The translations under genes and the position numbers were made by a program. The notes under the pieces were generated by a model that worked only from the letters and a program-made list of their open reading frames with translations, searched no databases and was not told where the DNA came from. DNA of 64,000 nt, from contig NC_068558.1 of NCBI RefSeq assembly GCF_022201045.2, positions 35,483,501-35,547,500 of the forward strand, in the 5' to 3' direction. The DNA is from Citrus sinensis (lineage: Eukaryota > Streptophyta > Magnoliopsida > Sapindales > Rutaceae). Of this stretch, positions 22,705 through 60,319 are shown one piece after another. Positions within the stretch are counted from its first letter, which is position 1, and each line of letters opens with the position of its first letter.

Positions 22705-24468
22705 ATGCCAAAGTTGACTCTCGATAATTCCTACCGTTTTTGCAGCCAGGAAGAGACCATATCTTACTTTCACTCTAAATCTATTGAGACGCTACTACAA
22801 AAGTTTACTTCAGATTGGTTTCGGCAGTTTGCACGCGAAGAGCATATCCAGGCCGATCTGATTGGATGGAAGAAGATGTTGGTGAAGAGTAATGAGGTTC
22901 TAGGTCATGCAGTGGAGAAGCAGACAACGAATCAGTCGGTTAAGATGTGGCTATGCAAACTTCAGAACTTGGCTTGTGGTGTTGAATATTTGTTGGATGA
23001 GTTTCAGATGGAAAGTTTCCAGAGGAAGTTGATGCTAGATGATGATGCTGTGGATGAGTCTGATTCCATAGCAATGTCCAAAATAAAGGAGGTCAATGCT
23101 AGATTGCAAGATATTGCATCGCAGATAGACCCACTAGGTTTGAAAGAAAGCTCAGATGGCAAGTTCAGAAATGTCCGGCTAAGATTACCCGCAGTCCCTT
23201 TGGTGAGTGGAGCCAATGTATCAGCAATGATATTCAAATGGAAGCCTGTGATTGAGCTGACAGAAAGAGTGGTAAACTGGTGTCGGTTTTTTCCCTTAAT
23301 TGAAAAATAAGGTAAACCGGGATCAGTTTATTTCACTGTTTATGTCATCACTCTGTCAGTGCTCTGACTAATTGCTAATGCTAATTCCATATTTCCATGT
23401 GTGTTTGTTCTTTCTTTCTTTTTTTTTATCCAAAGCTATTCTTGGCAGCGGTAAGACGTGTGGGCAGAGATCCTGGCCCTGCAATCTTTAGTCCATTAAT
23501 TAAGAAAGCCAAGGATTTGGCTTTCTTGGAAAAAAAAGGTGGTCTTGCTTCTTTGGAGAAAATAGGATCTGGTGGGTGTGGAGAAGTTTACAAAGCTGAA
23601 CTACCAGGACAAAATGGAAGGATGATTTCTATTAAGAAAATTGTGGGGCCTCCAATGGATGCTGCAGCATTGATTGAAGAAGATAGTATGCTGTTGAACA
23701 AGAAAATGAGGCAAATTCAGTCTGAGATGCTGTTGAACAAGAAAATGAGGCAAATTCAGTCTGAGATTAATACTGTGGGTCAAATTAGGCACAGAAATCT
23801 TCATCCTTTGCTGGCTCATGTGACCAGGCCCGACTGCCATTTACTTTGTGTACGAATTCATGAAGAATTGAAGTTTACAAGACATTCTCAACAATGTCTC
23901 ACAAGGGAGACGAGAATTAGATTGGCTAGCTAGACACAGAATTGCACTTGGACTGGCTTGTGGGCTTGAGTATCTGCATATGCACCATTGCCCTCGTATA
24001 ATCCATAGAGATCTAAACCCAGTGAACGTGCTTCTAGATGATGATATCGAAGCCAGGATTTCTGGTTTTGGTTTTGCAAGAGCAATTCCTGATGCTCATA
24101 CACATATCACAACTTCGAATGTGGTGGGAACGGTGGAATACATAGCCCCAGAGTATTTGCAGATGCTAACACTTACTGAAAAGTGTGATATATACTTTGG
24201 GGCGTTGCTAGCTGGTCTGGTGATGGGAAAACTTCCGTCCGATAAATTCTTCCAACATACAAACGAGATGAGTTTTGTTAAATGGATGAGAAATGTCATG
24301 GCCTCTGAGAATCCTAAGCGGGCTATCGATTCAAAGCTCGTGGGCAATGGCTGTGAGGAGCAAATGCTTCTTGTTTTAAAGATTGCTTGCTTTTGCACTT
24401 TGGAAGATCCAAATGAAAGACCTAACAGCAAGGATGTTAGGCGCATGTTGTCGCAGATCCAGCACTGA
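22705..24468 (+). pseudogene. Fusion gene A: NLR coiled coil + SOBIR1-like kinase, decayed
   Basis: Exon 1 (22705-23217, 171 codons) encodes the array's common leader and Rx-type coiled coil (LACGVEYLLDEFQ). A 218-bp intron (23218-23435) joins AAT|GT to ATCCAAAG|CTATTC in phase 0. Exon 2 begins with the SOBIR1 juxtamembrane LFLAAVRRVGRDPGPA, FSPLIKKAKDLAFLE, then G-loop GSGGCGEV and Lys in ISIKK. A perfect 39-bp tandem duplication (23688-23726, 23727-23765) repeats the alphaC helix. An extra T near 23846 shifts the frame and stops it at 23931; a TGA also lies in the old frame (AATTGA). The C-lobe is open at 23980-24468: HRDLNP, GFG instead of DFG, YIAPEY, and the SOBIR1-like end SKDVRRMLSQIQH. 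Loss of the DFG Asp plus the frameshift argue against an active kinase. The ATG is chosen because MPKLTLDNS starts every array member. Confidence 0.87.
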
Positions 24469-24745
24469 TGACCTTATGTGGGTAGTTTTAAATGTACAAG
24501 AATAACACCACTAACTATCATGAACAATGTATGCTTGCAAATTAAGTTGTATAACAATGATCCTTCTGTGTTTTTTCTTCGAATAATCTATAATGTGGTT
24601 AACAGTGTTGTAATTTCACAAACTAGAAACTATTTCTTAGGGCTAGTTGTCCCACTCCCTTAACTGTTCCCACTAAGAATATTATTTATAAGAATGGTTC
24701 GTTCATATTGTTACAAATATGCTAAAGTCCAACTTTTGGTGGCAG

Positions 24746-57969: not shown

Positions 57970-58120
57970 TCGGATCTAGGTCATCGTTAAAAATAAGTTT
58001 GGGTTTGTTCCACAATTAATTTGTCTTTAAAGAGTTTTTGCTGACTTGTATAGACACGATGTTTCTTAATGCCCTTCGCTAGAATCGGAAAGAAGAAGCC
58101 ACAGTTCTACAGAAAAAGGG

Positions 58121-60319
58121 ATGCCAGAGGTCACTCTCGATAATTCTTTTCGTTTCTGCAGCCAAAAGCAAACCATCTCTGACTTACACTCTGAAACTAT
58201 TGAGAAGCTACTAAAAAGGATGTCTTCGGATTGGCTCTGGAAATTTGCACGCCAAGAGCAGATCCAGGTCGATCTGATTGGGTGGAAGGAGATGTTGGTG
58301 AAGATTAACGAGGTGCTAGATGATGCCAAGGAGAAGCAGACGAAGGAGGAGTCAGTGAATATGTGGCTAGGCCAGCTTCAGAACTTGGCTTGCGATGTTG
58401 ATTACTTGTTTGATGAATTACAAACGGAAGCTTTCCAAAGGAAGTTGCTGCTAGGCGATGATGCCATGGATAAGTTTGATTCCATGGCGATGTCTAAAGT
58501 AAAGGATGTCAATGCTAGATTTCAAGATATTGCATCGCAGATAGACCTACTAGGATTGAAAGAAAGTTCAGTCGAGAAGTCAAGAAATGCCAGGCAAAGA
58601 GTACCCACAACCCCTTCGGTGAGTGAAGCCAATGTGTTGGTACTTTGATATTCAAACAAAAAGTTTTGATATAATGCTTTTGATAATAATGCTGACAAAA
58701 AACAGTGATTAAAAGCTGTTTACTCATTTAATTGATAAGATAAAATAAATTGGGCATTGTTTTGTTAGTCAATGACAGTGCCACCTAAGGTTTAAAAAAA
58801 GATTTTAATTCTTAATTTCACCCAAATTTTGTATTTCTCTCTAGCAAAATTTGTGATTTTTCCCCATTAGCTTTGAATAAAATACGAAAAAAAAATTACA
58901 AAATTACATTTTCATCACCAAAATCAACTTAAATATATACATTATATCCAAAATTTAATTAAAACACTTAAACGGGGATCAAATTCTTGGAGTAATAAAA
59001 TTTAACTCCACTAGCTCTGCCACTGTTTTAAAGTGGCTCTCTTTAGCATTTTCACCAATTTATGTTAGAAAAAAGATAAAGAGGAGATTGTTAAACTGCT
59101 ATGCGAGAAAAATAAAGACTAATTGCTAATGCTAATTCCGTTTTGTTTTGTTTTCTTTTTTAAAGCAAATCTCGGATGCACAAAGAGGTGGAGGTGGAGA
59201 TCCTGGCCCTGCAAACTTTAGTCGTTCATTAATCAAGAAAGCTAAGGACTTAGCTTTCTTGCATCAGCAAGTGCAAATTTTTACCAAGTCAGAACTGGCA
59301 CAAGCCACTGGAAATTATGATACACGTCTATTTCTTGGTGAAGGTGGTTTTGCCTCTGTTTACAAAGGCGTCTTACCTGACTGTACCCCAGTTGCAGTTA
59401 AGAAGCCTAAAGCGGTAGGTAAGATTCCGATGAATCAGGTATTTCAGCATGAACTGAGAGTTGTTTCACAAATAAACCACAAGAATGTGGTCAAGATTTT
59501 AGGGGTATGTCTGGAAACCAAAGTGCCTCTACTGGTTTATGAATTTGTTCCCAACGGAACTCTGTTTGAACATATCCATGATAAGAGTTCACAAGTTTTA
59601 AGAAATTGGAGAACTTGTCTGAGGATTGCGGCCGAAATTGCTTCAGCTCTTGACTATTTGCATTCTTTAGCAAGCCCACCAATCATTCACGGAGATGTAA
59701 AGTCCACCAACATACTCTTGGATGACAATTATAAGGCAAAATTGGCTGATTTTGGATCTTCAATGCTGATTTCGTCAGATAATCAAACTGCAATGACCAC
59801 AAAAAAAATAGGGACTTTTTTTAACTTAGATCCCGAGTACGTAATAACAGGTAATTTTTTTTTTAATTTGTCTTTTTTATTGATAGCCTTGCGCCATGCC
59901 CAATTTTTTTCTCTATGTAATTCACTTTGAACCGCAGATCCTTTGTGCCATCCCAAAATTTTTTACTAGTTAAGATAATAAGCGCTCAAATAATGACAGG
60001 TAAATTGACAGAGAAGAGTGATCTGTATAGCTTTGGGGTTGTCCTTGCGGAATTGTTAACCGGCTTGAAGCCTGTCTCCGGCATGGCACTGGCATCCAAT
60101 GAAGGGATCAGCATGGTTCAATATTTTCTATATTCGATTGAAAATAATAGTTTGCGTCAGATTCTAAACTTTCAAGTTGCTGATGAAAGTGAAATGGAGG
60201 AGATAGAAACCGTCGCTGAGCTTGCAAGCAAATGCTTAAGCCTTAGCGGCAGAAGAAGGCCAACAATGAAGCAAGTTTCGGAGGAGCTTGACAGGTTGAA
60301 AATTTCGCATGAAAATTAA
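58121..60319 (+). CDS. Fusion gene E2: NLR coiled coil + WAK-like kinase, 505 aa
   Basis: Exons 58121-58633, 59166-59850 and 60000-60319. The first intron (AAT|GT ... TTAAAG|CAA, phase 0) is at the same place as in gene A; the second is the WAK intron of D1/E1. Residues 1-171 are leader and CC (ACDVDYLFDELQTEAF). Residues 172-203 hold the SOBIR1 juxtamembrane, DPGPANFSRSLIKKAKDLAFL, followed directly by QVQIFTKSELAQATGNYD of a WAK-like kinase. Motifs are GEGGFASV, Lys250, HGD 346-348, intact DFG 366-368, and GTFFNLDPEY where GTVGYLDPEY is usual. The C-terminus is cut by TAA at 60317 where D1 reads TAT and E1 TTT, and the tail code (HLLGES) is still visible downstream. Of the three WAK fusions it keeps the best catalytic loop, although the activation segment is odd. 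Confidence 0.87.
58634..59165 (+). other. Intron 1 of fusion gene E2
   Basis: 532-bp intron between the CC exon and the SOBIR1/WAK exon. Its first 50 bp match D2, and its position and phase match the 218-bp intron of gene A. Confidence 0.75.

Follow-up and report, generated by a model that had tools for sequence, protein, structure and literature searches.

The stretch of DNA analysed here, referred to as the window, comprises 64,000 nucleotides of contig 3 (C3, positions 35483501-35547500) of the sweet orange, Citrus sinensis. It holds seven genes in which the coiled-coil (CC) domain of a nucleotide-binding leucine-rich repeat receptor (NLR) is fused to kinase or phosphatase sequence, called the payload below. 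They are part of a larger array of 20 CC modules, all on one strand, in which no NB-ARC domain is recognised; it extends over about 220 kb and has an intact coiled-coil NLR (CNL) with the same N-terminal leader at its end. The array described in an earlier sequence-only reading of the window is real, but the window covers only about one third of it, and two of its five kinds of payload, VASt and DUF3475/DUF668, lie outside. In window positions, the members and the parts of member C are as follows:

22705..24465, plus strand: member A, CC exon (about 22705-23202), predicted intron (GTGAGT donor, AAG acceptor) and SOBIR1-type exon from about 23436
30532..32076, plus strand: member B, CC and SOBIR1-type kinase in one open frame of 514 codons from the ATG
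35249..36688, plus strand: member C, CC, SOBIR1-derived juxtamembrane (JM) segment and PP2C in one open frame of 479 codons from the ATG
35705..35773, plus strand: SOBIR1-derived JM remnant in member C, which reads VILSAVRLGRGVRDPG...
35774..36904, plus strand: retrocopy of a PP2C 11-like gene in member C, eight exons joined, with about 215 nt of the donor's 3' untranslated region
49588..51278, plus strand: member D1, CC, JM and WAK-like kinase (about 49588-50679 and 50826-51278, with a short intron between)
51431..53487, plus strand: member D2, broken, with a stop at codon 154 of the CC and SOBIR1 fragments at 52731-52943 and 53392-53487
56250..57966, plus strand: member E1, CC, JM and WAK-like kinase (about 56250-57347 and 57514-57966)
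58121..60367, plus strand: member E2, CC exon (about 58121-58618), predicted intron, SOBIR1 JM and WAK-like kinase to about 59858, then 59990-60367

All seven modules match Rx_N (PF18052) with 46-57 bits at a Pfam cut-off of 27.7, and none of ten open reading frames of the window matches NB-ARC (Pfam, E<=0.1), in agreement with the sequence-only reading of a shared leader and Rx-type CC without NB-ARC. According to Pfam, A, B, D1, E1 and E2 also contain kinase sequence, and C contains a PP2C domain (210 bits); the proposed fusion of the CC to a SOBIR1-like kinase, a WAK-like kinase or a PP2C phosphatase is thus borne out, with only SOBIR1 fragments in D2. The open frames of about 480-520 codons claimed across the junction hold for B and C (526 and 521 codons from stop to stop). 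The frames of D1 and E1 cross it over 416 and 395 codons and continue in the kinase after a short intron. Deposited spliced C. sinensis models correspond to D1 (P0006, 540 aa) and E1 (P0008, 521 aa), and a second deposited D1 model of 648 residues reads on into the CC of D2.

The extent of the array was determined by searching the genome (299.7 Mb, 11 contigs) with the leader and CC as query, which gave 82 matches from 150 scored of 234 candidates; all copy counts are therefore lower bounds. The 22 copies at C3:35477698-35699397 are all on the plus strand, and two of them are CNLs. Chance resemblance is excluded for the seven window modules, since they reach E = 1.1e-46 or better. No NB-ARC was found beyond the linker that joins CC and nucleotide-binding (NB) domain in NLRs (CC-NB linker) when 1.5 kb on each side of the non-CNL copies were searched, with the part-copy 35602478 outside this test. 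By our assignment, 11 of the 20 modules are SOBIR1-type, some of them only fragments or frameshifted, four carry a WAK-like kinase, and PP2C, DUF3475/DUF668 and VASt occur once each; no payload was recognised within the fetched sequence of the remaining two. Several fusions have kept the 5' end of the NLR, since about 50-60 nt directly before the ATG are common to several members and the intact CNL. Longer upstream similarity joins subgroups only (up to about 470 nt, and more than 1.4 kb between D2 and E2).

The intact CNL at C3:35699059 is open over 1444 codons (1429 from the ATG) and has the leader of the fusion modules. Its first 180 residues are fully covered in three of 42 hits (proteins of 786-2,500 residues), namely its own record and two C. 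sinensis models, P0036 and P0037, which hold VASt and NB-ARC in one protein. These two models appear to be a VASt member run into the neighbouring CNL, possibly two genes joined by annotation.

A protein search with words from residues 1-185 of C found 33 proteins of about 263-838 residues, comprising 30 named Citrus records, two proteins encoded in the window and an NLR from Eucalyptus. Annotated fusions come from five taxa of Citrus, namely C. sinensis, C. clementina, C. unshiu, C. x changshan-huyou and C. x aurantiifolia. Of these, C. sinensis, C. unshiu and C. x changshan-huyou have CC-PP2C, while CC-VASt is present in C. sinensis, C. clementina and C. unshiu, and CC-DUF668 in C. x aurantiifolia and the C. 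sinensis genome analysed here. No NB-ARC was found in eight deposited fusions (Pfam, E<=0.01). For the sequence-only reading, domains found separate in a re-assembly would have been a refutation; other Citrus assemblies also annotate them as fused, and an assembly artefact is disfavoured by the records from the four taxa other than sweet orange. Cultivated citrus share ancestors, and the five taxa are not all independent lineages.

Two of the deposited relatives have an unusual composition. P0002 (Citrus unshiu, 641 aa) has two tandem CC modules ahead of the PP2C, and in P0029 (Citrus x changshan-huyou, 389 aa) the CC module is fused to a reverse-transcriptase-like domain (PF07727), which is probably a retrotransposon insertion in a B-like member.

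Junctions, payload donors and order of fusion

The JM segment had been taken as part of a shared NLR-type front, but it comes from SOBIR1. In the citrus SOBIR1 gene (C3:3836448, 711 open codons) this segment reads FKLILAAVRGGSRDSGPAIFSPLIKKAEDLAFL, and the array members carry the same segment. Most SOBIR1-type members pass from the end of the CC at the CC-NB linker to it. In all nine members examined for splice sites (A, E2 and seven outside the window), the CC-NB linker marks the end of the CC exon, with GTGAGT as donor, and SOBIR1 sequence begins after an AAG that matches a SOBIR1 codon; donor and acceptor are kept and the phases match. The splicing is predicted, and deposited models such as P0015 are joined at exactly these sites. 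The intron is absent from B, C, D1, E1 and C3:35559917, which read straight through.

A SOBIR1 remnant precedes the WAK-like kinase, the PP2C 11 retrocopy and the DUF3475/DUF668 payload as well, and the breakpoints differ: the WAK payload follows DLAFL, GLAFL or similar, the PP2C about GPAIFS and DUF3475 LEKIGS. From these remnants with their differing breakpoints, we infer that the fusion of the CC to a SOBIR1 kinase arose first and that its kinase was later replaced. No SOBIR1 remnant is visible in front of the VASt domain. On a tree of 17 CCs, the payload state changes at least six times, one change being the step from the CNL, and the WAK payload occurs in two CC lineages with supports of 98 and 99. 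If the tree is right, there was therefore either an exchange between members or two captures of a WAK-like kinase.

The PP2C payload is a retrocopy, since seven introns of 118-937 nt in the donor (C5:33757595-33761679, minus strand), whose relatives are named probable protein phosphatase 2C 11, are absent from it; the stretch of donor 3' untranslated region was carried along. The intron aligner required GT or GC and AG ends, and all seven introns chosen are GT-AG. The array offers a traceable case of a retrocopy turned payload inside an array of immune genes. A retrocopy origin for all payloads was rejected because the WAK payloads share an intron position with relatives on C8. The nearest WAK-like genes outside the array lie on C8 and are 70 and 65% identical. 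The DUF3475/DUF668 payload is 87% identical to C4:7024551, where the relative's own frame is open over 607 codons. Two VASt loci about 10-55 kb upstream on the same contig (C3:35422947-35425093 and C3:35466720-35468858) could be related to the VASt payload or have given rise to it.

Selection and active sites

Selection was assessed with maximum-likelihood codon models, where omega is the ratio of nonsynonymous to synonymous substitution rates (dN/dS) and 2dlnL is twice the difference in log-likelihood. For 16 CC exons, omega was 0.50 (2dlnL 39.7 against omega 1), and it was 0.54 (2dlnL 25.8) when the broken members A and D2 were left out. Of 120 pairwise intervals, 105 lay below 1 and none above. 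D2 was cut at its stop for the first estimate, and uncut it gave 0.51 with the same 105 of 120 pairs, while the mixture fit for the CC and the tree of 17 CCs used the D2 codons behind the stop shifted by one. A plain pseudogene cluster, which the sequence-only reading had tied to a dN/dS near 1 in all members, was therefore rejected for the CC; as individual members, A and D2 are broken. The eight SOBIR1-type payloads also lie below 1 (omega 0.80, 2dlnL 4.9), but the WAK and PP2C payloads, discussed below, do not depart significantly from it.

The SOBIR1 payload apparently mixes constrained with diversifying sites. Allowing sites with omega above 1 gave a gain (2dlnL) of 29.8 for the SOBIR1 payload, 13.5 for the WAK payload and 3.3 for the CC, and 25 simulations of the SOBIR1 payload without such sites reached a maximum of 6.5. 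The two halves of the SOBIR1 payload on their own trees gave 9.4 and 21.7. In columns 320-325 of the kinase alignment, unlike tails are lined up with one another, and a rerun omitted these columns; without this tail, member B and the copy K35637, the gain was still 18.0, and the sites picked then fall in what we take to be the beta3-alphaC loop and the activation segment. If stops were not selected against, the tree of the eight SOBIR1 payloads should hold 34 nonsense changes, 27 of which would fall on terminal branches; no such change is found ahead of the last two codons. The tree of the four WAK payloads should hold 19, and the three stops actually found in them all lie behind the kinase core. 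Strong constraint on the C-lobe of the payload, suggested by simple counting, was not upheld (maximum-likelihood omega 0.71). An earlier quick fit with unoptimised branches, in which the payload tests gave 3.1 and 1.4, was superseded by the optimised fit, except for the leader.

Six of the eight open SOBIR1-type kinases lack the Lys, the HRD-Asp or the DFG-Asp. They can be described as pseudokinases, which have lost one of these residues and kept the kinase fold, the fold being seen in one model. Across the eight, change at the three catalytic positions is found in 25% of cells, compared to 26% at an average position. The kinase of A is frameshifted near 23870. Among the WAK-type kinases, three of four no longer have the Gly of DFG, a residue present in all four relatives compared: D1 has HSD in place of HRD and DFE in place of DFG, E1 has DFE in place of DFG, and E2 keeps DFG and has one stop, behind the kinase core. 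Overall, the active site is altered in nine of 12 kinases.

The first motif of the PP2C reads GKN..MEE in all six records of the fusion family and GKR..MED in all 111 other records that match the pattern. These are part of a set of 121 (the best 120 of 1,501 hits plus P0013), four of which do not match; among the six, the model P0078 begins in the JM, and P0079 is partial and begins in the PP2C. The altered Arg and Asp are presumably phosphate- and metal-site residues, as in human PP2C-alpha. Since the other PP2C motifs are kept, the activity may have dropped without being abolished.

In the one member modelled as a pseudokinase, the predicted structure keeps the kinase fold and matches only kinases among PDB chains. 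Predicted helices and a kinase fold are found in one chain, and the first 20 or so residues, the leader, have low model confidence.

Possible function of the array

A bait or decoy role, one of several raised in the sequence-only reading, is the role we favour. We give an even chance to an array that works as a set of CC-anchored, largely pseudo-enzymatic baits, which would dock to a CNL and signal when pathogens interfere with the host domains. The fusion proteins would be made, their CC would dock on a CNL, for which C3:35699059 is the best candidate, and the payload would be the part touched by pathogen molecules. CC and leader would form the common plug, the payloads the changing baits, and a CNL with the same leader the socket. 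This assignment fits better than the reverse because CC and leader are constrained and the payload is variable and apparently diversifying. A wider version, which we consider somewhat less likely than not, treats the NLR CC as a universal plug. Through retroposition and ectopic exchange at a single hot segment, Citrus would keep loading it with copies of its own immune and signalling proteins and would let catalysis go; the outcome would be a split decoy receptor system with many payloads, in which one CNL is served by many baits without an NB domain. The sequence-only reading had also considered that the members bring kinase and phosphatase together; as an active pair, this is weakened by the altered active sites.

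Several results weigh against the bait reading. The deposited fusion proteins are gene models, and the model of member C is poor (mean predicted local distance difference test score 54). The fusion CCs are 46-53% identical to that of the CNL on which they would dock. Member B keeps every catalytic residue checked (Lys, HRD and DFG), and K35637 keeps the Lys and both Asp. Neutrality is allowed for the four WAK payloads (omega 0.78, 2dlnL 3.4, not significant) and, taken alone, for the PP2C of C against its donor (pairwise omega 0.63, interval 0.35-1.20). The diversifying signal may be inflated by recombination between tandem copies and by multi-nucleotide changes, both outside the model; without K35637 and B, the sites near what we take to be alphaG drop out, and for seven of the same genes the CC reaches a 2dlnL of 6.0, in the uppermost part of the simulated range. 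The eight SOBIR1 payload copies were picked as open, which bears on the count of stops, and A, D2, C3:35568169 and C3:35549970 are broken.

The broken members and the payloads indistinguishable from neutral, WAK and PP2C, would fit decaying debris, that is, an unstable NLR cluster in which fragments of genes collect and which serves no function as a whole. The omega of the CC, the shortfall of nonsense changes in the SOBIR1 and WAK payloads, the splice sites kept in all nine members examined and the annotation of fusions in five taxa argue against this, and we regard debris as unlikely, though not far-fetched.

A switch resembling MLKL, with the CC bundle as the cell-death part, the payload as a lid that releases it and no CNL partner, is rather improbable. 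The layout of predicted helices and kinase fold in one chain resembles that of Pm13 and MLKL (PMC10951266), and the CC is the constrained half, as such a switch would have it. However, Pfam reports Rx_N above its cut-off and not the HeLo, DUF1221 or MLKL N-terminal domain of plant MLKL. The chain also begins with the low-confidence leader and not with an exposed first helix, which breaks the MADA rule, and we know of no PP2C, VASt or DUF668 lids.

A similarly small probability is given to dominant interference, in which the fusions bind and block complexes of SOBIR1, WAK, PP2C or NLRs and dampen immunity instead of sensing pathogens. Competitors of this kind would look like the enzyme payloads, which keep their domain matches, often without catalytic residues, and like the modelled pseudokinase, which keeps its fold. 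The apparently diversifying sites of the SOBIR1 payload and the sharing of one CC by unlike payloads are not readily explained in this way.

The array has partial precedents. Rpg5 of barley belongs to the NB-LRR proteins. Where Rpg5 has its C-terminal kinase, a PP2C is found in many rpg5 alleles and in many susceptible lines, so that one NLR-derived front part bears either domain in the same position (PMC6290389). The barley exchange is allelic, whereas the citrus forms are tandem paralogues without a recognised NB-ARC or leucine-rich repeats (LRRs) and with five payload types. Pm13, a fusion of MLKL_NTD and a kinase, has an N-terminal helical bundle and a kinase domain in one short protein, a layout that the citrus kinase fusions may share, and keeps its catalytic residues (PMC10951266). 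In citrus, the putative bundle is the Rx_N of an NLR, the six open SOBIR1-type kinases named above are catalytically altered, and three payloads are not kinases. Like kinase fusion proteins, B, D1, E1 and deposited relatives combine a kinase with an unrelated domain; C, with its PP2C, falls outside this class. As in NLRs with integrated decoy domains (PMC4246468; PMC7422411), host domains including kinases and PP2C are joined to an NLR part, here Rx_N with a kinase, PP2C, VASt or DUF3475/DUF668. The difference is that the citrus fused protein has no NB-ARC, and any decoy would therefore work in trans. ZED1 belongs to another kinase family and has no NLR coiled coil. By functional analogy, it resembles the proposed baits as a pseudokinase that serves the NLR ZAR1 in effector recognition (PMC6634424).

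The sequence-only reading had known of no locus that pairs an NLR CC with kinases and a phosphatase. This is qualified by Rpg5/rpg5 and Pm13. Among the papers listed by literature searches in a collection that lacks most subscription journals, none was seen to describe NB-less CC fusions with these payloads. No paper was found on LOC102622835, and a survey of citrus NLRs does not mention kinase, PP2C or SOBIR1 in the available portion of its main text (PMC11504038). As far as this literature goes, it is new that NB-ARC and LRRs are missing, that a single array holds five payloads, that donors and breakpoints can be traced and that CC and payload differ in selection. If the bait reading is true, an integrated decoy can exist outside an NLR, and a plant could attach many baits to separate copies of an NLR coiled coil and renew them by capturing genes. 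This would link SOBIR1, WAK-like and PP2C signalling to a single NLR locus in a major crop. What the kinase and phosphatase decoys guard would be directly testable, since the baits, their donors or close relatives and the candidate receptor are all located.

Other features of the window

No tRNA was found in the window, and no Rfam family matched at its gathering threshold. Upstream of the seven members, the window contains a second CNL of the array, which is interrupted by a mobile element:

2107..12036, plus strand: upstream CNL with CC, NB-ARC and R13L1-type LRRs, whose CC match lacks the leader
3673-9032: Ty1-copia-like element inside the upstream CNL, with an open frame of 1630 codons on the minus strand, the family name being our reading of this frame

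The terminal repeats of the element (3673-3972 and 8733-9032) are 99% identical, and this near-identity suggests that the insertion is recent. An F-box protein gene (14742-15674) also lies upstream of the members. Between A and B, a DUF247 protein of 474 residues (387 bits) is encoded at 27105-28526 on the minus strand, and a stretch of 300 nt at the end of its gene (27014-27313) recurs at 21110-21409. The long gap between C and D1 contains a retrotransposon gag fragment (44716-45186, minus strand).

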